Part shown: positions 2,187 to 19,158 of the stretch, piece by piece
Position numbering within the stretch: position 1 is the stretch's first letter
Layout of the letters: each line of letters starts with the position of its first letter
DNA from: a virus
Virus record (IMG/VR): IMGVR_UViG_3300037205_000041
Coordinates: 1-20,278 of that record
Strand: one strand, 5' to 3'
Length of the DNA: 20,278 nucleotides
Notes under the pieces: model-generated
Seen by the model: the letters and a program-made list of their open reading frames with translations, nothing else
Databases searched by the model: none
What the model was told of the DNA's origin: nothing
Position numbers and translations under genes: made by a program

Positions 2187-2729
2187 GTGTCAGACATCCC
2201 GCCCGGAGACGGCGACCCGAACTACCCCAAGCGGAAGTTCCGGAGCCCGCAAAGCAAATCGACTGGGCACGCGAAGCGTGACAGTTCGCGCGCGCGCATT
2301 TTGGCCAACGCGCCGAACGTCGCCGAGCGCGTGAACGAAGTGGTGCGCCTGATGGCGCACGGCGAGTGGTATGGGGCCGCCACGAGGCTTGAGCTGGCGA
2401 CACGATGGGGGGTCGAGCTGAACACGATCAGCGTGCACGCCGCGGAGGCATCGCGGCGGCTAGCCATTCCCCCGGAGCAGATTGATACGGAGCGCGCGGC
2501 GCACGCGGCGTTCGCGTCGCGGATGCAGCGAGATGCGACGAGCCGCGTCAACCTCATCACGGGCCTGCCGGACTACGCCAGCGCCCTGAAAGCGAACGAG
2601 CAGGCCGCGCGGTTCAAGGGCATCGAGCTCGACGCGAGGGCGTCGGTTAGTGCGACCGGCCCGATCAGCATCGAAGTGAAGGTGTGCCCGGACGAGCCGG
2701 AGCCGCCGGCGGTAAAACACCCAACGTAG
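2187..2729 (+). CDS. terS: Probable terminase small subunit
   Basis: 180 residues from GTG 2187; no strong ribosome-binding site is visible, so the start is uncertain. Residues about 52-95 contain an HTH-like segment (AATRLELATRWGVELNTISV) following a basic N-terminus. The C-terminal part is helical (FASRMQRDATSRVNLITGL, then ALKANEQAARFKGIEL) and could oligomerise. Small terminases recognise phage DNA through an N-terminal HTH and form a ring that loads the large subunit. The call rests on this layout and on the position as first gene of the operon carrying the large terminase and portal. A different DNA-binding protein remains possible. Confidence 0.6.
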   Translation: MSDIPPGDGDPNYPKRKFRSPQSKSTGHAKRDSSRARILANAPNVAERVNEVVRLMAHGEWYGAATRLELATRWGVELNTISVHAAEASRRLAIPPEQIDTERAAHAAFASRMQRDATSRVNLITGLPDYASALKANEQAARFKGIELDARASVSATGPISIEVKVCPDEPEPPAVKHPT

Positions 2730-2741
2730 ATTGGCGGCACC

Positions 2742-3233
2742 GTGAAGCTTTGGGTCGGACGCCATTCGGATGCGGGCGAGTATATCCCATACGACCCCAA
2801 GAAAGAGCGCGAGCGCCCTCTCACGGCCAAGGGCCGCGCGATGACGAAGGCGATCGGCTCCGCGATGGGAAGCGCGGGCGAGATCCCCAATGTGATCTTT
2901 TCGTCGCCGCTCATCCGCGCGCAGCAGACGGCCGACATCCTCGGCGCGCTGCTCGCCGTGCAGGTCAACGTGATTGACGACCTGGCCCCGAATCGCCCTC
3001 TCGAGGACCGCCTGCTCGAGCTGATGGGCCATTCGGAGATGAAGCGAATCATGATCGTCGGGCACCACGACAACATGGAGCCTGGCTTCGAGAATCTCGG
3101 CGGCAAGTTCGACCCGATCGCGATGGGTGAAGTGCGCCGACTCCGCATCGACCGCAAAACGGGTGACTGGTCGGAGCGTTGGCGCGCGCAGCCGAGCGAA
3201 TTCGGCTTTGAGGATCTGGACACCAAACGATGA
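2742..3233 (+). CDS. Histidine phosphatase family protein, SixA-like
   Basis: 163 residues from GTG 2742. It has the histidine-phosphatase signature: R7-H8 near the N-terminus (GRHSDAG, where H8 would be the phosphorylated nucleophile), SSPLIRAQQTADIL at residues 54-67 supplying the conserved Arg59, and VGHHDNM at 106-112 supplying the second catalytic His108. Length and the missing insertions match the small SixA branch, which removes phosphate from histidines of phosphotransfer proteins. The final 40 residues, after the catalytic core, are less typical. It lies inside the packaging operon, 12 bases after the small terminase gene and overlapping the next gene by 4 bases. The phage target is unknown. 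Confidence 0.85.
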   Translation: MKLWVGRHSDAGEYIPYDPKKERERPLTAKGRAMTKAIGSAMGSAGEIPNVIFSSPLIRAQQTADILGALLAVQVNVIDDLAPNRPLEDRLLELMGHSEMKRIMIVGHHDNMEPGFENLGGKFDPIAMGEVRRLRIDRKTGDWSERWRAQPSEFGFEDLDTKR

Positions 3234-3406
3234 AGGCTCGCATCTACGTCAACCGGCAGCTCGTCGCAGAGACCGAGCTCGCCGACATCGCCGAGCCGGG
3301 CCGCCCCGTGCCAGTGGCCGTCAACGACGAAGTGTCCGTAGTGTTTTTCGCGACCGACGAGCGCCGCCCCGCGGTAGCGCTCGAGGGCCGCGCCGAAAGG
3401 GCGTGA
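3230..3406 (+). CDS. Small protein of unknown function (58 residues)
   Basis: ATG 3230 overlaps the phosphatase stop (ATGA), and the stop TGA is at 3404-3406, one base before the next ATG. The product starts MKARIYVNRQLVAETEL and looks like a small beta-rich fold, with alternating hydrophobic segments (RIYVNRQLVA and VSVVFFATD). The tight fit between two coupled genes is the main support. No family is recognised. A role linked to packaging or to the phosphatase is only a positional guess. Confidence 0.65.
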   Translation: MKARIYVNRQLVAETELADIAEPGRPVPVAVNDEVSVVFFATDERRPAVALEGRAERA

Positions 3407-3407
3407 C

Positions 3408-3605
3408 ATGGCAACCGAGCACGAGAACCGACAAGAGGAGGCCATCCGGCACCTCGCCGAAGCCGTGAAGGCGCTCGCCGAAAACGAGATCCACGGCGCT
3501 ACGACGCTCCCGGCTGGGCCGGGCGCGACGAAGGCGCTGAAGCTCGCAGAGCACGTCCTGGCGCTCGTGGCCGTCGACGAGACCGAAACGGACGGTGCCG
3601 CATGA
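3408..3605 (+). CDS. Small acidic helical protein of unknown function
   Basis: 65 residues, ATG 3408, with GAAAGGG a few bases upstream inside the previous gene. The N-terminal half is a charged amphipathic helix (ENRQEEAIRHLAEAVKAL). The second half has a short Gly/Pro turn, then another helix and an acidic end (DETETDG). It overlaps the next gene by 4 bases (ATGA at 3602). It could be a small helical-hairpin accessory of the packaging module. No family is recognised. Confidence 0.65.
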   Translation: MATEHENRQEEAIRHLAEAVKALAENEIHGATTLPAGPGATKALKLAEHVLALVAVDETETDGAA

Positions 3606-4087
3606 GCATCCCGAGCGTGCCGCACATGGCCACGATCGGAGAGTCGATCGAGAAGACGCGCGCCGACCAGGCTCGTGGCCTCGCCGACATCCAGCGTCAG
3701 CTTCGCGGCAATCACACGATCGGGATGCCGGTTGAGTACCGCGACGATAAGGACGGGATGGCGCGCGACCCACACGGCCCGAAGCGGCGCGTCGGGAAAG
3801 CCGTCTGCCCGCAGTGCGGCGGCAAAACCGAGGTGCACCAGTCGCTCAACGTGTCCGATGGATCGTGGACACCTTCGGCCGAGCACGTTCTCGCGAACGT
3901 CTGCGGTTGGCGTCTGGTCAATGGCCTTACGTTCTGCGGAGGCGCGTGCGCCGTGGCGTATGGCGTCCAAATGAAACAGCATGTTGCCGTGCAGCCCGTC
4001 ATGCGGGTGGCCGATCAAGGCATCGCGAAGACGCTCTACGCCGACACGGTGACTGTCCCAGCGAAGCCGCCCCCGCAGAAGCGGTGA
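3602..4087 (+). CDS. Zinc-ribbon-like protein of unknown function
   Basis: 161 residues, ATG 3602, coupled at both ends by 4-base overlaps (ATGA upstream, GTGA downstream into the large terminase). The N-terminal third is helical (IGESIEKTRADQARGLADIQRQL). The central part has C69-x2-C72 followed by C101, C112 and C116 (FCGGAC), consistent with a split zinc site. The C-terminus is Pro/Lys-rich. Placement immediately before the terminase ATPase suggests a packaging-related role, but none is proven. Confidence 0.65.
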   Translation: MSIPSVPHMATIGESIEKTRADQARGLADIQRQLRGNHTIGMPVEYRDDKDGMARDPHGPKRRVGKAVCPQCGGKTEVHQSLNVSDGSWTPSAEHVLANVCGWRLVNGLTFCGGACAVAYGVQMKQHVAVQPVMRVADQGIAKTLYADTVTVPAKPPPQKR

Positions 4088-5418
4088 CAATTCAGCTCGA
4101 CTTTTCGCGGTGCAAGGCGCAATCGCGCGCGTTCCGCGAGCTCACCACCAAAAAGCGCGTGTGCAACGCGTGGGGCCGAGGGACGGGCAAAAGCTGGTTC
4201 GCGCGCATGAGCCTGTATCTCGACGTCGCGAAGTACGACGGCGTCGAGCGGCCCACTATCGGTGGGGGCAAAATTCGTGGCATCCGGCAAGTGTTGCTCA
4301 TGCCTACGATCGCCCAGTTCAAGAAGGTCCACGCGGCGGCAATCGACGCCGAGCTGTCACCCGGAGGGCCATGGGGCGCCCTCGGGGCCTCGATCAATCA
4401 CACCGACTGGCGCATCGAGTTTCCGGGCGGGTCCTGGATTCAGCTCGTCAGCGCGCAAAACGCATCCGGCGGTCTCGGCATCCGGTGCGACAAAGTGGTG
4501 GCCGACGAGTGCGACGACATCGACATCAGTGAGTACGAGCGGGTGTGTATCCCGTGGTTTTCTGAGCCGTGGTCGCTCGACATGCGGCTGCTCTCCGGCA
4601 CTCCCCGGCGAGGTCGGTACGGCCTTCTCTGGCGCGCGTTCTCCGTGTGGCCAAACGGCGACGCTGAGCACGAGCCGGTGCAGAATCACGTGGGCATCCA
4701 CGCCACCTACCGCGACGCGCCGTCCTACGTCAGCCAAGACATGGTGGCGGAGGCGAAGCGCACGATGTCTCCGGACACGTTCGCGCGCGAGTGGGAGTGC
4801 GACTTCGACTCGGGCGAGGGGCTCGTGTACCCGTTCTTCGATCGCGCGTTTCACGTTCGGCCACCGCCGGCGATGTATGCGTTTCGCGAGTTCATCGTCG
4901 GCTTCGATTACGGCTGGAACGACCCCTCCGTGTTCCTGGTCCTCGGCATCGCCGGCTTTGGCCGAGACACCATCTGTCACGTGCTCCGAGAGGTGTACGT
5001 CACGCAGAAAAGCGACACGGAGCTCGCCGACATCGCGGAAAGTATCGAGGCATCGTTCCCGCACGCCAGGTGGTACTCGGACCATCACCCAGCGACGATC
5101 GCCGCATTCAAAGGTCGGCACATCGACGTGGCCATGGCCGACAAGACCTACAAGGTCGAGTTCGGCGTCGCATTCGTCGCTGACGCAATTTTCATCCGCG
5201 AGTCCGAAGACAAGCGATGGTCGCAGTTCTACGTCGACCCATCGTGCAAGCGATTCATCGAGGAAATGGGGCTTTACCGCCGCAAGCGCGATCCTCGAAA
5301 CAAGGACCGCATCCTCGACGATATCGACACGTCCGCGAACGACCACGGGCCGGACGCGGCTCGCTACGCCCTCGTGACGCGCTTCTCTGGTCCCGACCGC
5401 CGGCTCATTCTCGGCTGA
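4084..5418 (+). CDS. terL: Terminase large subunit (packaging ATPase and nuclease)
   Basis: 444 residues from GTG 4084, overlapping the upstream stop by 4 bases; the frame is open further upstream but homology-like sequence begins here. The ATPase half has Walker A GRGTGKS at 31-37, Walker B VVADE at 138-142 with catalytic Glu142, and the coupling motif SGTP at 171-174. The nuclease half has an RNase H-like set of acids: Asp275 in GFDYGWND, Asp333 in YSDHHP, and Asp424 in NDHGPDAARYAL. It drives ATP-dependent DNA filling of the prohead through the portal and cuts the DNA. Length is typical. It is followed 7 bases later by the portal gene. Confidence 0.93.
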   Translation: MTIQLDFSRCKAQSRAFRELTTKKRVCNAWGRGTGKSWFARMSLYLDVAKYDGVERPTIGGGKIRGIRQVLLMPTIAQFKKVHAAAIDAELSPGGPWGALGASINHTDWRIEFPGGSWIQLVSAQNASGGLGIRCDKVVADECDDIDISEYERVCIPWFSEPWSLDMRLLSGTPRRGRYGLLWRAFSVWPNGDAEHEPVQNHVGIHATYRDAPSYVSQDMVAEAKRTMSPDTFAREWECDFDSGEGLVYPFFDRAFHVRPPPAMYAFREFIVGFDYGWNDPSVFLVLGIAGFGRDTICHVLREVYVTQKSDTELADIAESIEASFPHARWYSDHHPATIAAFKGRHIDVAMADKTYKVEFGVAFVADAIFIRESEDKRWSQFYVDPSCKRFIEEMGLYRRKRDPRNKDRILDDIDTSANDHGPDAARYALVTRFSGPDRRLILG

Positions 5419-5425
5419 CATCAAC

Positions 5426-7285
5426 ATGCCCATCCCGACAACGCCGGCACCCAGCGCGCCGCGCGGCGGCGGCAGCGACCCACGCGTCCAGAAGCTTTCG
5501 CCCGACAAGGTGCAGAAGCTCCTCGACTGCGCGAAGACGCCGAGAGTCCGCGAACTGGAACTCCTGCAGTCGCACGTCGAGGGCACGGCGTACGCCGGTC
5601 GCGTCCCCTTCAATCGCGACGACGTCCCGCTCGAAGAGCGCGCTCCGAACGTCATCTACCGGCTCGCCGCCATCGCCACCGAAAGCAACGCGGCCTTCGC
5701 CCTGGGCGACGGGCGCTTCCCGACCATTCTGTCTCTTTCGAGCGAGAGCGACGACGTTTTCGATCAGGCTCTGGGGCTGAGCGGAGACGACTCCGCCATC
5801 ATCGACTCGTTCAACGCGAGGCTCATCGATCTCGCCGGGCTCGAGACGGCTATCGGCGTCGCATACCGAATGGCGCAGGCATCGAAGTCGTGCGCCTTGG
5901 TGCTCGGATATCGGAGCGGCCTGCCGTTCGCCGATCTCGTGTGGTCGAAGCACTGCCTACCGTCTTTTGACGACCCAACGGACCCGTGCAAATGCACGAA
6001 GCTCGTCATCCGGTACCGATACACGGAGCAATGGCGAGATGCCGTCCGCACAAGCGGCGAATGGTGGACGCGAGTTTTCGAGTACCTCCGGGTCATCGAC
6101 GATGTGGCCGACACGGTTTACTGGCCCGTTTCAGTTTGGGAAGACACCGACGAGGGGGCCGTCGAGGGCGCATCGCCGGTCAAGACGCGCGTGACCCACG
6201 GCTTCGGCTTCTGCCCGGTGCACTGGTACGCGCGCAACCGCAAGAGCATTGTCGGCGAGACCTTCGACGGCGAGGCCGTGCACGACGGCCTTTGCGGGAT
6301 GCTCGAGCAGCTGGATCTTTGCCTGTCGCAGAAGCAGCGCGCGGGGCTCTATTGCGGCGACCCGCAGACGGTGATCACCGGCGTCAGCGACGAGGACCCT
6401 ATTGGGGGCGTCGGGCGTCGAGCGACCGGAGTCGAGCCAACGGACGTGCAGGGCGGTCGGCAATGGGCGAAGTCCTTCGCTCCGGCAAAGGGGCCGAACG
6501 GTGGTGCCATCAAGCGCGGCGCTGGCCAGGTGTGGCGCATCTCGGACCCTGGCGGCAAAGCGGAGATGCTCTGCCTACCGGCCGATGCCCTAGCCGCGCT
6601 CGACAGCAACGCAAAAGACCTCGCGCAAAAGCTTTGCGACGACATGGGCGTCACCATCGTTGACCCGTCCGTTTTTTCGGGCGGCGGAGATCTAAGCGGG
6701 CGCACGCTCGCGTTCATCTTTTCGAAGCAGATCAACCGCGTCTCGCAGGACCGCAAAAATATCGGCAAGTGCCTCATCCTGCCGGTGCTGAATATGTTCT
6801 ACCGGATGCTTCTCGCGAGCACCGACGGCGTCTACCTGCCTGGGCTGAAGAAGGTCGCGCCGATCCTGGCCCGCTTCTATCGCCCGATCGGCGACGGCCC
6901 ATCGCGGATATGGTTCGCGCCCCATCTCAAACTGAAATGGGGCGACTACTTCGAGCCATCCGACGTCGACGAGTCGACGCGAACGACCACGGCGATCGCG
7001 GCGAAACAGGCCGGCATCATCACGCTCAAGAGCGCGGTGGAGCACGTGCGGTCCGTCTTCGAGATCGGGTCGGTCGATCAGTACGTCGACGCGCTGCAGG
7101 ACGAGACCGACGCGAGCGCTGCGAGGGACGCGCAGCAGGCCATCGACATCGTGGCCGGCACCACCGCGGCCAAGAGCGGCGAGCCGTCGGCCACCCAGTC
7201 GCCCAACGCCGCTCCGCCGGCGACCGGGGCACCCAAAGCGAAGCGCGCAGGCATCAAGCCCGGAGTCAAGAAAGCGGCCCAGTGA
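5426..7285 (+). CDS. Portal protein
   Basis: 619 residues, ATG 5426, seven bases after the terminase stop and without an obvious ribosome-binding site. The protein is expected to form the dodecameric ring at one capsid vertex through which DNA enters and to which the neck attaches. Portal-like features are the segment around 285-320 (GMLEQLDLCLSQKQRAG, then DPQTVITGV), the stretch VFSGGGDLSGRTLAF at 416-430 followed by a long helix, and the C-terminal part at 505-560 (KWGDYFEP, then a long helical segment). The last 45 residues are Ala/Pro/Lys-rich and probably flexible. The subfamily is not certain; a Mu gp29 or SPP1-like portal is possible. Confidence 0.8.
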   Translation: MPIPTTPAPSAPRGGGSDPRVQKLSPDKVQKLLDCAKTPRVRELELLQSHVEGTAYAGRVPFNRDDVPLEERAPNVIYRLAAIATESNAAFALGDGRFPTILSLSSESDDVFDQALGLSGDDSAIIDSFNARLIDLAGLETAIGVAYRMAQASKSCALVLGYRSGLPFADLVWSKHCLPSFDDPTDPCKCTKLVIRYRYTEQWRDAVRTSGEWWTRVFEYLRVIDDVADTVYWPVSVWEDTDEGAVEGASPVKTRVTHGFGFCPVHWYARNRKSIVGETFDGEAVHDGLCGMLEQLDLCLSQKQRAGLYCGDPQTVITGVSDEDPIGGVGRRATGVEPTDVQGGRQWAKSFAPAKGPNGGAIKRGAGQVWRISDPGGKAEMLCLPADALAALDSNAKDLAQKLCDDMGVTIVDPSVFSGGGDLSGRTLAFIFSKQINRVSQDRKNIGKCLILPVLNMFYRMLLASTDGVYLPGLKKVAPILARFYRPIGDGPSRIWFAPHLKLKWGDYFEPSDVDESTRTTTAIAAKQAGIITLKSAVEHVRSVFEIGSVDQYVDALQDETDASAARDAQQAIDIVAGTTAAKSGEPSATQSPNAAPPATGAPKAKRAGIKPGVKKAAQ

Positions 7286-8298: not shown

Positions 8299-8679
8299 AT
8301 GATCAATACCAACGCAGGCACGCCGTTCATTGGGTATTGCCAGCTCACCAATGGCGCGCCAGGCCCAACGAACTTCACGCTGTTCAGCGTCATGGGCCAG
8401 GCCGCTTACACGCTGCAGGCGACCGAGCGTTTGGTCATCACCAACATCACCGTGTCAAGCAACGACACGCAGGCTCTGACGACCGTGGACACGGGCGGGA
8501 CAACGCCCACGCCGCTCATGAAAACGTATCTCGGCTCGACGCAGCCTCCGGCCGTCGAGACGATACCGCCTGGCTGCTGTCACACGATCTTCGGCGTCGT
8601 CCCTCGCGCGACTGCGAGCGCGGTCACGGGCGCGAACACTGTCCAGATCATCATAAAGGGCTTCCTCACGAAGTCCTGA
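8299..8679 (+). CDS. Small beta-rich structural protein, paralogue of 12482-12868
   Basis: 126 residues, ATG 8299. The sequence is Thr/Gly/Val-rich with alternating hydrophobics, typical of a beta-sandwich. It is clearly homologous, roughly 40 percent by eye over almost the whole length, to the product of 12482-12868. Shared blocks include GTPxIG, LTNGAxGPTxFTL, VMG, ERxVI, SNDxxxAL, TVDT and VPRxxASAV. It sits two genes before the scaffold, so a capsid-decoration or other minor head protein is the best guess. It has a CC pair at about residue 94 not kept in the paralogue, which has a single Cys. Confidence 0.75.
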   Translation: MINTNAGTPFIGYCQLTNGAPGPTNFTLFSVMGQAAYTLQATERLVITNITVSSNDTQALTTVDTGGTTPTPLMKTYLGSTQPPAVETIPPGCCHTIFGVVPRATASAVTGANTVQIIIKGFLTKS

Positions 8680-10127: not shown

Positions 10128-11258
10128 ATGGCAATCATCAATAGAGCGAGCCTGCCCGAAGAGTTTTTTGACCTCACGAGCGGAATGCTGCTCGTCCAGC
10201 CCGAGCCGCAATACGTGTTCGCTCAGCTCTTCAAGGCGGCCATCGGGTCGGCCATGATGCTCGCTGCGGCGAATCAGATCGGAATCACGCCAGCGCGCAT
10301 GATTCCGTCGTCGGGCCTGCAGTACACGCTCCCGGGAGCGGACAGACTCACGCTCGCGACTCCGGACGGCCAGGCCAATCAGATGATCCTCTCCGTCGCC
10401 GAGCTGTCCAGGCCCCAGGTCGGGCACACCGTGCGCGTCAACCGCCCGCGGTACGGCTCCGGCGGGTTCACATTGGCCAACCGCGAGATCACATCCGGTT
10501 CGCTCATCAGCACGATCGCGACCGATCTGCAAAGCGAGCAGGTCACCATCACGGTCAAGCGTTACGGCGGCCCGTACGACCCTTCGCAGGCTGCCGTTGC
10601 CCCGTTGGCGCTGGACCGGTTCGACGCGTCGCGCTCGGTGCACTCGCTTGCGGGCGTCATCGGCACGCACATGCAGCGCGACTTCGACCACTGGGCGGAC
10701 GCGGTCTGCGCGCAGTTCCTCTCGAGCGGGTCGACGACCTTGTGGCCCCAGGGATTCGCGGCCGACTCGCAGTCCGCGACGGTGGGCGACATGCCCCTCG
10801 ATTGCGACCTGCTGTTCCGCGGGGTGGAAACCCTTCGGAACGCCAACATCCCGATGTTTTCGAATGGCCGCTATCGGGCGTTCATCACGCCGACCGGGGG
10901 CCGCCAGCTGCAGAACGACGCCCAAACCGGGAGTTTCATCCGCTACGACGTCAAAGGCGCGAACCCGATTACCGGCGAGGGAAGCGCCGCGCCGGGCCCC
11001 GGGTATATCGGCCATATCACCGGATGCGACATCTTCGAGGCCACCACGCTGACGAGCGCGGTGAACGGCAACGGCATCCCGGTCTACACGAGCTTCATGG
11101 CTGGACCTGGCATGATGGCCACCGGTGCCGGCGCGCTCCCGTACGTCGCGAGCTCGACGGACGACAACTACGGCGAGTCGGCGAAGGTCGTTTGGCTCTC
11201 CTACCTTGGATTTAACTTGGCTGACGCTCGATTCGGCGTGCAGCTCCACACGTCCTAA
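10128..11258 (+). CDS. Major capsid protein
   Basis: 376 residues, ATG 10128 with AAGGAAG (10113-10119) at ideal spacing, one of the best ribosome-binding sites in the window and in keeping with high expression. Length, the position right after the scaffold-like gene, and a mixed alpha/beta sequence with a long central helix-rich part fit the HK97 fold. Recognisable stretches are VHSLAGVIGTHMQRDFDHW (about residues 169-187) and RAFITPTGGRQLQND around 245. It is expected to form the icosahedral shell. A single-copy capsid gene without an attached protease fits the separate scaffold. The fold assignment is inferred from context rather than from a recognised signature. Confidence 0.8.
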   Translation: MAIINRASLPEEFFDLTSGMLLVQPEPQYVFAQLFKAAIGSAMMLAAANQIGITPARMIPSSGLQYTLPGADRLTLATPDGQANQMILSVAELSRPQVGHTVRVNRPRYGSGGFTLANREITSGSLISTIATDLQSEQVTITVKRYGGPYDPSQAAVAPLALDRFDASRSVHSLAGVIGTHMQRDFDHWADAVCAQFLSSGSTTLWPQGFAADSQSATVGDMPLDCDLLFRGVETLRNANIPMFSNGRYRAFITPTGGRQLQNDAQTGSFIRYDVKGANPITGEGSAAPGPGYIGHITGCDIFEATTLTSAVNGNGIPVYTSFMAGPGMMATGAGALPYVASSTDDNYGESAKVVWLSYLGFNLADARFGVQLHTS

Positions 11259-11837: not shown

Positions 11838-12482
11838 ATGGCTTTGCGACCCGAAGAGATTCTCAGAATCAAGTACCAGCTCGGCGTGAGTGTCACGCTG
11901 ATCGGTGCGGAGCCGTACATCACCTATCTGGCGGTGTTCGACAAGGCCATTCAGCCCTACATCATTGACCCGTCCACGACGTCGACGACGGCCGTCGTGG
12001 CGGGTACGACGCAGGCCATCACGGTCGCGGCCATTCCGCTCATCGTGGGCACGTCCACACCTGCTTTCGTCGCCGGATCATATTTGACCGTCGACGTCGG
12101 GCTAGCGCAAGAGGTTGTGCAGGCCATCGTTGTGACCGGGACGACTGTTTACGGCACATTCGCATTCGCTCACGGGGCCAACGGCCTATACACGGTCGCG
12201 ATGGCTGGCGGCGAGCAGGTCGTGCGGGAGATTCTCACTCGCATCGCGACGATCGAAACGAAGATGAACAGCATCGCGCCCAACGTGGCCGGCGTCAATC
12301 AAGCGGACGAAGTCTCATTTCACCCGTCGAGCACCGTAGCGTCGAGGCGTGGCACGCGCGACACGTTCGAGTCGCTAACGCAGCAGCGCGAGCAAGCGCG
12401 CGACGATCTGGGCGAAGCGATCGGCTTCGCTAATCTTCGCCGCCTGAAGCGTCAATCTGGGATGAGCTCGAGTCCGTACTGA
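11838..12482 (+). CDS. Probable head completion or connector-type protein
   Basis: 214 residues, ATG 11838. It starts with a helical segment (MALRPEEILRIKYQLG), followed by a Thr/Val-rich beta domain (about 45-125) containing YLTVDVGLAQEVVQAIVV and FAFAHGANGLYTVAMAGG. It ends in a helix-rich C-terminus (VVREILTRIATIETKM and on). Proteins of this layout occur near phage neck genes, which is why a connector role is suggested. The stop overlaps the next ATG by one base (TGATG). Not proven. Confidence 0.65.
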   Translation: MALRPEEILRIKYQLGVSVTLIGAEPYITYLAVFDKAIQPYIIDPSTTSTTAVVAGTTQAITVAAIPLIVGTSTPAFVAGSYLTVDVGLAQEVVQAIVVTGTTVYGTFAFAHGANGLYTVAMAGGEQVVREILTRIATIETKMNSIAPNVAGVNQADEVSFHPSSTVASRRGTRDTFESLTQQREQARDDLGEAIGFANLRRLKRQSGMSSSPY

Positions 12483-12868
12483 TGGGAAACGCCTCAGGAA
12501 CGCCTGTCATCGGGACTGCGACGCTCACGAACGGCGCGATCGGACCCACGCAGTTCACGCTCTACACCGTGATGGGCTCGAACCCACAGCCGTTGCAGCC
12601 GAACGAGCGGGTCGTAATCGATCAGATCCTGATCACGAGCAACGACCCAGCGCTCGCGCTTGTCACGGTGGACACCGACTCGTCCGTGCCAACAAAGCTC
12701 GTGTCGGCGTACGCGACATCGTCGTTCCCGGCCTACAGCGAGAATTTTGCGCCGGGTACGTGTCGTGGGGCCATCGGGCTCGTCCCTCGAATTTCGGCCA
12801 GCGCGGTGTCTGCGGGAAAGCAGATTAGCGCGGCCATCAATGGCCACATCCAAAGAGTGTCGCCCTAG
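12482..12868 (+). CDS. Small beta-rich structural protein, paralogue of 8299-8679
   Basis: 128 residues, ATG 12482, overlapping the previous stop by one base. It aligns nearly end to end with the product of 8299-8679 at about 40 percent identity by eye, without large gaps. Shared blocks are listed in that entry. One copy lies before and one after the capsid gene, so they arose by duplication and may form hetero-oligomers or occupy different sites on the head. The Cys pair of the first copy is reduced to one Cys here. The stop is followed immediately by a 14-codon frame. Confidence 0.75.
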   Translation: MGNASGTPVIGTATLTNGAIGPTQFTLYTVMGSNPQPLQPNERVVIDQILITSNDPALALVTVDTDSSVPTKLVSAYATSSFPAYSENFAPGTCRGAIGLVPRISASAVSAGKQISAAINGHIQRVSP

Positions 12869-17604: not shown

Positions 17605-19158
17605 ATGCTAGGGTTTGACCCGGTTAGCGGGAGCCCGCTATCGGCGAGTGACGCATCGGCGGCCGCACTCGCATTCATTGGAGTTGACGAGCCGCAACGA
17701 ACGAAGCCCCGTCTGCCGCTAATCGACGACGCTCACGCGTTCGTTCAGGTGGCAACGACCACTAGGGGCATCACCCTCGACGAGCCGGCGACCCCTCCGA
17801 GGCACCGTTCACGTGCCCCGGAAGACGCGACGAGCTTCAGCGCCTTGGCCCAGTCGTCGTTCGGGTGGGCGGCAGTAGAACCGGTCAGCAGATGGCGCCC
17901 GAAGCAACCATCGCCGGATGACGGTCTGCGCTGGCCATTGTTGGCCCTGCCTGCGCGCCTCGCAGATGACGCGCCACGTCGGACATGGCAGCGCACGCGG
18001 CAAGTGCCCGACGAGCAAACCCTCAAGCCGTTCGTCCCCATCTCGCTTCTCACATACGGATGGGAGTCGCTCAGCCTCCTCTCCCCGCCGCGCAGAACAA
18101 CACCGCTCAACCTCGACCAATACCAGACAAATAAGCGGCTCGTGCCAGTCAACCCTTATAGTGGCTTTGAAATAGGCGGCGTAGTCGAGCCGCTGTCAAT
18201 CGTCAGCTCGAACAGCCTCCTGCAGGATTCAGATCCAGCGCTGTTCTATATGCTGGATTTCTTCGCGTACGTCATCAACACGTATCCGGGGCCGCGACTG
18301 TTGCAAGCGGCGTCTGCGGCCAATCTCCCAGTTGCCTCTGCCGTCGCGCAAAAATACCCGGTCAGCCCGCAATCGGAATTCCAGCAGAATCAGTTCCGAT
18401 TCCCGCTCTTGTGCGTTGCGCGAAAGCGTACGCAATCGGGACGCCTGACGGCATCGTGGGAACGCGATCGGAACACATTCGAACTGACGTATGCGCTCCC
18501 GCCGCTCGACCCTGGTCAGGCAGAAGCCATAATGCCCATACTCGCCGCTGTCGCGCGCGACCTGAGGCACAAGACCACCCAAGGATTCGACCCCGGCTAT
18601 ACGCCTCCCGGAGGCACTGCCGGTCAAAGCCCATGGGCGGTCGCTGGCGTGCAGGATATTGGCTTCGGCGATCCGTACCGCGATCTCGTCGAGATTGTGT
18701 CGTACGGCTATCTCGAGGGCGCCGGGAACCTGTTCTTTCCGTGCATCGTTATGAACGGCTATTTCTCCGAGCGCGACATGTACAACCGCACCGCGGCCGG
18801 GGCGGTGAAATTCGCGGGCGGCGACATCACCGCGGACCTGCAGGCATCAGACGGCACCGTCATCGCGGCGGTCATTCAGTCGTCTACCCAGCAAGCGCCC
18901 ACCGTCACGAGCCTGAGCGTCACGAGCGGGACGCATCTCGGCGGCACCGCAGTCACCATCACCGGGACGCTGTTTCTCCCCGGGGCCACGGTGCTCTTCG
19001 GCAACGCCTATTCCACCAGCGTGACGTGGAATTCGGCGACGTCGATCAGCTGCACGACGCCGGTCATGCAAGGCGCAGGCGCCTATGCGCTAGCTGTCAC
19101 GGTAACGAACCCAGACGGCCAAGTCGGCACCCTGCCGCTGGCCTTCACCTTCACATAG
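17605..19158 (+). CDS. Large structural protein with C-terminal IPT/TIG domain
   Basis: 517 residues, ATG 17605, two bases after the previous stop. The opening MLGFDPVSGSPLSA resembles short starts seen in other phage structural proteins. Residues about 25-170 are Pro/Arg-rich and may be extended. Residues about 205-400 look like a folded domain (FYMLDFFAYVINTYPG, then LTASWERDRNTFELTY). Residues 431-517 form a recognisable IPT/TIG Ig-like domain (APTVTSLSVTSGTHLGG, VTITGTLFLPGATVLFG, then AVTVTNPDGQVG). Such domains on virions usually bind surfaces or stabilise fibres. The central part is not recognised; a tail or neck component is possible. Confidence 0.65.
   Translation: MLGFDPVSGSPLSASDASAAALAFIGVDEPQRTKPRLPLIDDAHAFVQVATTTRGITLDEPATPPRHRSRAPEDATSFSALAQSSFGWAAVEPVSRWRPKQPSPDDGLRWPLLALPARLADDAPRRTWQRTRQVPDEQTLKPFVPISLLTYGWESLSLLSPPRRTTPLNLDQYQTNKRLVPVNPYSGFEIGGVVEPLSIVSSNSLLQDSDPALFYMLDFFAYVINTYPGPRLLQAASAANLPVASAVAQKYPVSPQSEFQQNQFRFPLLCVARKRTQSGRLTASWERDRNTFELTYALPPLDPGQAEAIMPILAAVARDLRHKTTQGFDPGYTPPGGTAGQSPWAVAGVQDIGFGDPYRDLVEIVSYGYLEGAGNLFFPCIVMNGYFSERDMYNRTAAGAVKFAGGDITADLQASDGTVIAAVIQSSTQQAPTVTSLSVTSGTHLGGTAVTITGTLFLPGATVLFGNAYSTSVTWNSATSISCTTPVMQGAGAYALAVTVTNPDGQVGTLPLAFTFT

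Follow-up and report, generated by a model that had tools for sequence, protein, structure and literature searches.

A SixA-like histidine phosphatase gene among the DNA-packaging genes of a phage clade

What would a phage do with a SixA-like histidine phosphatase encoded between the genes of its terminase? The question is raised by one gene of an IMG/VR virus record of 20,278 bases (the window). Few phosphohistidine phosphatases are known from bacteria, and the SixA-type enzymes belong to these few. Judging from the comparisons described below, the window protein represents a phage-specific subfamily of short SixA-like histidine phosphatases and is probably active.

The packaging locus

The phosphatase gene (GC of 0.66, 0.43 and 0.82 at the three codon positions) follows the gene of the terminase small subunit (TerS) and is itself followed by genes for proteins of 58 and 65 aa, a zinc-ribbon-like Cys4 protein, the terminase large subunit (TerL) and a putative portal protein, with a major head protein farther on (Table 1). 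The initial annotation had placed the gene inside a DNA-packaging operon, and with TerS upstream and a TerL of PHROG 2 downstream this placement holds. It had also considered the gene translationally coupled to its neighbours, which is the case downstream, where its stop overlaps the next start, but not upstream, where the TerS stop lies 12 nt away with no overlap. The most likely start of TerL is the one at 4084, chosen at a GTGA overlap. For the putative portal there was no convincing family match in Pfam or PHROG. Between positions 1950 and 5500 a consensus scan, which leaves other promoter types outside, found no promoter-like site (0.2 expected in shuffles), and the sole terminator-like site on the + strand is located at 4539, inside TerL. 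This anatomy suggests that the phosphatase is co-transcribed with the packaging genes.

Elsewhere in the window, the ORFs at 8299-8679 and 12482-12868 (126 and 128 aa) are apparent paralogues that match the same relatives (e.g. L093_7877_8260), and a 517-aa protein encoded at 17605-19158 has a C-terminal IPT/TIG domain (PF01833, 39.7 bits) and is perhaps tail-related.

Table 1. Positions in the window of the phosphatase gene, its characteristic codons and the surrounding genes
Feature	Position	Strand	Remarks
Terminase small subunit (TerS)	2187..2729	+	Homologues in relatives adjoin or overlap TerL
SixA-like histidine phosphatase	2742..3233	+	163 aa, GTG start, TGA stop
Codons of R7-H8	2760..2765	+	RH motif; His8 is the predicted phospho-acceptor
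Codon of R25	2814..2816	+	RPL motif; 98/98 rows
Codon of R59	2916..2918	+	SPxxR motif; 98/98 rows
Codon of H108	3063..3065	+	Second catalytic His, then phage-type H-D-N
IDRxxxxW signature, residues 136-143	3147..3170	+	Near the C-terminus, phage subfamily
ATGA	3230..3233	+	Phosphatase stop overlaps start of 58-aa gene
58-aa protein	3230..3406	+	No Pfam family
65-aa protein	3408..3605	+	No Pfam family; weak relative in L164, E 1.6e-4
161-aa Cys4 (zinc-ribbon-like) protein	3602..4087	+	Between phosphatase and TerL
Terminase large subunit (TerL)	4084..5418	+	PHROG 2, E 5.8e-30
Putative portal protein	5426..7285	+	Assigned by position after TerL
Major head protein	10128..11258	+	PHROG 1357, E 2.8e-7

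Fold, active site and predicted activity

The protein passes the Pfam model of the histidine phosphatases, branch 1 (PF00300), with 34.3 bits over a cut-off of 21.7. The NCBIfam sixA model (TIGR00249) matches it at E 7e-13 with 48.7 bits, short of the equivalog cut-off of 74.5, and the same model recognises the phosphatases of all five members of the phage clade described below at E of 0.001 or less (best 3.8e-13). Since the score is under NCBI's SixA equivalog cut-off, we filed the protein as a SixA-like subfamily; the name SixA is too strong for it. Its nearest solved structures by sequence are Nostoc Alr0221 and two SixA proteins, Alr0221 (PDB 3f2i) being the best match, at 1.7e-7 with the single sequence and 4.2e-12 by profile.

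An AlphaFold2 model built from a 22-row alignment (pLDDT 93.3, pTM 0.90) found its best VIA-align match in E. coli SixA (PDB 1ujb; Z 21.5, 2.1 Å, 150 of 156 residues), followed by Alr0221 (Z 20.3) and Agrobacterium SixA (19.8) and, at lower Z, by MutT1 C-domains (18.3), a phosphoserine phosphatase (17.8) and PGAM5 (17.7). Foldseek comparison of the model with 3f2i gave E 2.9e-13. In a library of viral models there were 30 matches at E of 0.001 or less, mostly giant-virus proteins, together with two phage proteins (TM-scores 0.62 and 0.56) and three unnamed proteins. Both the Pfam score and the predicted fold, nearest to that of E. coli SixA, thus agree with the description as a SixA-like histidine phosphatase from which the analysis started. 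With E. coli SixA the protein shares the fold, the length (163 aa without large insertions, covering those 150 residues) and the R7/H8/R59/H108 active site, although identity in the structural alignment is only 17%; unlike SixA, it has an HxDN loop and an IDRxxxxW signature and is encoded in a phage packaging locus. Alr0221, which also has the SixA-like fold, is a bacterial protein about 28% identical to that of the window, and its entry title names no function.

Both catalytic histidines (H8 and H108) and the arginines, already recognised from the sequence as those expected of an active enzyme, are in place: R7, H8, R25, R59 and H108 show no substitution in an alignment of 22 sequences that includes that of the window. 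When the alignment was widened to 98 rows, H8, R25, R59 and H108 were kept throughout and R7 in 95. The six phage proteins (the five of the clade plus one from a second setting, see below) have 36 invariant positions of 163, and the probability that four named catalytic residues would fall among these by chance is about 0.002 (hypergeometric). Also invariant in all six are D110 and N111, next to H108, and I136, D137, R138 and W143 near the C-terminus. The resulting motifs, HxDN after the second catalytic His and IDRxxxxW, are found in 6/6 phage proteins and in none of the 92 other rows, where the commonest loop after H108 is HNPG (48/92). An HxDN loop in place of HNPG may indicate a different substrate.

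Because the catalytic residues are equal and the fold is SixA-like, an active phosphatase is likely, and we make this prediction with good confidence. A pseudo-enzyme with a scaffold role might be suspected from the Gly preceding the second catalytic His, which is replaced in L158 and L094, but E. coli SixA has a Ser at that same position and the catalytic residues are invariant in six of six phage proteins, and this reading seems to us scarcely credible. More serious is the idea that the enzyme is active on small phosphoesters (nucleotides, or the phosphates of sugars or cofactors) and that its gene is a metabolic accessory gene serving to recycle phosphate or nucleotides. Catalysis in the superfamily is diverse, MutT1 C-domains and a phosphoserine phosphatase also match the model, and a passage of a 2025 review (PMC12713726) tables a sixA-like auxiliary metabolic gene of soil viruses as "not validated", with neither sequence nor locus; sixA was searched for and not found in the main text of one of the sources cited there, Trubl 2018 (PMC6172770). 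However, the single-domain small-molecule enzymes matched by the model have about 195-250 residues, while the window protein is SixA-sized and aligned over nearly all of SixA. This argument from length is weak because protein phosphatases such as PGAM5 are longer too, and we consider small phosphoesters a somewhat unlikely substrate.

Distribution, neighbourhood and origin

A scan of viral contigs using the phosphatase alone found no relative. Searches with TerL and the portal led to 124 viral loci, several from the same contigs (80 of 84 TerL relatives were kept), and phmmer comparison with the ORFs of these loci detected four close relatives of the phosphatase (L093, L094, L124 and L158), 48-59% identical to that of the window and with 52 positions invariant among the five. 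In each of the four, the phosphatase comes after the small-subunit position and is followed by the Cys4 protein and TerL; a profile confirms the small subunit in L124 and L093, as in the window, and in L094 and L158 it was recognised from its position alone. The phosphatase start overlaps the small-subunit stop in three of the five, the gap being 12 nt in the window and 104 nt in L158. The Cys4 protein keeps C69, C72, C112 and C116 in all five members, and a profile built on four of them detects the fifth, L158, at 2.3e-9. The 58-residue gene had been suggested to encode a partner of the phosphatase, a suggestion that did not stand up: a weakly similar gene is near in only one of the four relatives (L124; E 5e-6 in one comparison, over 26 residues). 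The terminase regions of L093 and L094 contain a peptide deformylase gene (PF01327, 113 bits each), downstream of the phosphatase in the former (1831-2415) and upstream of the small-subunit position in the latter (3528-4058).

A phage integrase is encoded in the records of both L093 and L124, as is a Mu Gp48-like protein, and that of L124 has Baseplate_J in addition, for which reason the clade looks temperate and perhaps contractile-tailed; this gene content comes from greedily called ORFs, with Pfam run on 59 of 71 and 56 of 72 respectively, and such calling misses genes in GC-rich DNA. Among 50,697 phage records, no named relative of the phosphatase was found beyond host and distant matches, and none of the head protein or the L093 portal; megablast of the window against phage records gave no match. 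TerL has one close named relative (MW202476, 41%), which is without the phosphatase.

With the Pfam model applied to whole records, the phosphatase was found in 4 of 108 other TerL- or portal-related IMG/VR records, many of them fragments. The successive batches gave 0/16 (window aside), 0/16 (in a batch that also held L204), 3/46 new and 1/30, at E of up to 1 (first batch) or 0.1. L094, with 17.9 bits under the cut-off, was counted as a carrier from its phmmer match, and two further records with 12-bit matches were left out of the count. In a quick portal tree of 78 rows (the window and 77 rows from 101 matches, after dropping those under 400 aa and those identical over the last 200 residues) the five carriers group together in a single clade (SH-aLRT 100), and the carrier state requires a single change, a value reached by none of 500 shuffles. 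The sister pair in this tree, L163 and L164, is without the phosphatase. In these two sisters the Cys4 profile has weak matches (E 0.04 and 0.07) upstream of the portal. The ORF at the terminase position of L164 (4589-6001), next to a related portal, has no phmmer match to the window TerL, perhaps by exchange of the terminase module. The gene is absent from most records with a homologous terminase and is not a core packaging gene; as 104 of the 108 related records are without it, it is not required for packaging as such.

A second setting appeared when the scan was made with the five-row alignment, which recovered the four relatives already known and also detected L204, with a phosphatase 41% identical to that of the window; a scan with all six phosphatases added no further relative. 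In L204 the preceding gene encodes a TerL of another type (PHROG 38), its stop overlapping the phosphatase start, and the portal (PHROG 145) comes next. Two other records were found with this type of TerL. L260, whose TerL is 89% identical to that of L204, lacks the phosphatase, its TerL being immediately followed by the portal; in L261 (TerL 39% identical) there is none near TerL. Presence in L204 and absence in L260 therefore indicate that the gene was gained in the line of the former or lost in that of the latter, fairly recently. The behaviour of the gene is that of a small cassette, apparently mobile between phages. The six-row phosphatase tree is in weak conflict with those of TerL, the portal and the head protein (p-AU 0.028 and 0.045, for two groupings), a hint of exchange.

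The position of the gene might suggest a switch in packaging, in which phosphoryl groups would be removed from the terminase, the adjoining Cys4 protein or another assembly factor between steps. It is found between the small-subunit position and TerL in 5/5 of the clade, with an overlap between its start and the preceding stop, that of the small subunit in three members and that of TerL in L204. Yet relatives with homologous TerS and TerL lack it: of the 27 rows where a TerS homologue was found (some from the same contig or near-copies, with the TerL start taken as that of the longest ORF), 22 have TerS adjoining or overlapping TerL, the exceptions being the carriers L124 and L093 and, with other sequence in that place, L102 and L098/L171 (one contig). 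L260, with its TerL 89% identical to that of L204, does without it as well, and histidine phosphorylation of terminase is not known to us. That most terminase relatives are without the gene argues against a necessary role in packaging, whereas a terminase neighbourhood in two different head modules leaves some room for a packaging role. Altogether we regard as improbable both such a switch and, more broadly, a terminase-coupled phosphatase acting on TerS, TerL, the Cys4 protein or host enzymes that feed NTPs, such as nucleoside diphosphate kinase; if true, the latter would link DNA packaging to histidine phosphorylation.

In the 96-row phosphatase tree, from which L030 and one identical sequence had been dropped, the six phage phosphatases form one branch with support 100/97 and a long stem (0.77). 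This branch is joined to four bacterial rows at 87/86, and its placing among bacterial proteins is weakly supported. Leave-one-out profiles give the phage proteins 132-240 bits, against at most 64 for the 92 other rows, which were collected with one search pattern from 299 + 149 genomes of two phyla and a few plasmid or phage records. The score gap and the single branch rule out a recent host copy, with nearer bacterial kin possible outside the sampled genomes. Nor was there any sign of the degraded copy that the initial annotation had contemplated, the gene having its own branch and being conserved across the clade; dN is below dS in 15 of 15 phosphatase pairs (e.g. 0.41 vs 1.13 between the window and L124, with dS near saturation). 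The phosphatase of Vibrio phage GR11A falls in another branch, on a long and therefore unsure end branch, so that phages may have acquired such genes more than once.

Two apparent phage homologues were rejected: in "Acinetobacter phage MD-2021a" sixA is found among the host genes gpsA, pyrD and purF, and MT837895 appears to be a bacterial contig whose phosphatase is longer. The first codon of a sixA gene marks the exact beginning of 22 IMG/VR records (L028-L049, positions 1-387). The encoded protein has 98-99% identity to its counterpart in Acinetobacter nosocomialis (L082), a pattern that suggests prophages adjacent to sixA, or trimming of host flanks at this gene.

Substrate and significance

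The gene most likely entered an ancestor of this clade of uncultivated, probably temperate phages between TerS and TerL and would have been retained there since. The anatomy of the locus suggests that the enzyme is produced alongside the packaging genes, hence late in infection. This would be poor timing for countering host defence signalling via phosphorylation, a role that its nature as a small cassette, seemingly moving between phages, might otherwise suggest. PADLOC, a library of defence and not counter-defence genes, had no match for the phosphatase, its three small neighbours or the L204 copy, and we consider such a role very improbable.

By analogy with the family, His8 would accept the phosphoryl group, assisted by H108, R7 and R59, and water would then free the phosphate. 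In SixA, His8 is required and a transient phosphohistidine forms during removal of phosphohistidine from NPr, according to PMC7948535; PMC12934123 describes SixA as acting also on Ndk and, in its discussion, the basis of its specificity as unclear. From this family background a phosphohistidine protein of the host is our preferred, though tentative, substrate. No phage-encoded substrate is in sight, because the PTS, Ndk and histidine-kinase families (Pfam) are not represented among the 56 and 59 called ORFs of the long relatives L124 and L093. The candidates, the least certain part of the proposal, would be a PTS phosphocarrier of the NPr/HPr type, nucleoside diphosphate kinase or an HPt domain. 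With equally little certainty, the phage might in this way shift host phosphotransfer or nucleotide metabolism while virions are being filled.

Proteins of the same superfamily are known in Vibrio phage GR11A, Tenacibaculum phage PTm1, Acinetobacter phage ME3 and Lactococcus phage PLg-TB25 (ORF58). The last three are longer than the window protein (234, 194 and 198 aa), and ORF58 of PLg-TB25 is far from the terminase ORFs 27-28 (PMC5431838). PHROG 12933, of unknown function, matches all six phage proteins by its N-terminal part, only to about position 84 of 197. In the relevant parts of the open-access literature we came across no SixA-like family described from a terminase operon; this covers PMC12054119, where a host sixA appears in a gene table, PMC5431838, PMC7698700 and PMC10436341, where the wording "histidine phosphatase" glosses phoH. 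A viral sixA is already on record in this literature, as an unvalidated metabolic gene (PMC12713726).

If the enzyme merely recycled phosphoesters, it would be a modest accessory gene. As a clade-wide phage variant with its own active-site loop, found beside the terminase in two head modules, it offers a natural probe of the specificity of SixA-type enzymes, and raises the question of which phosphohistidine protein a phage would switch off during DNA packaging.
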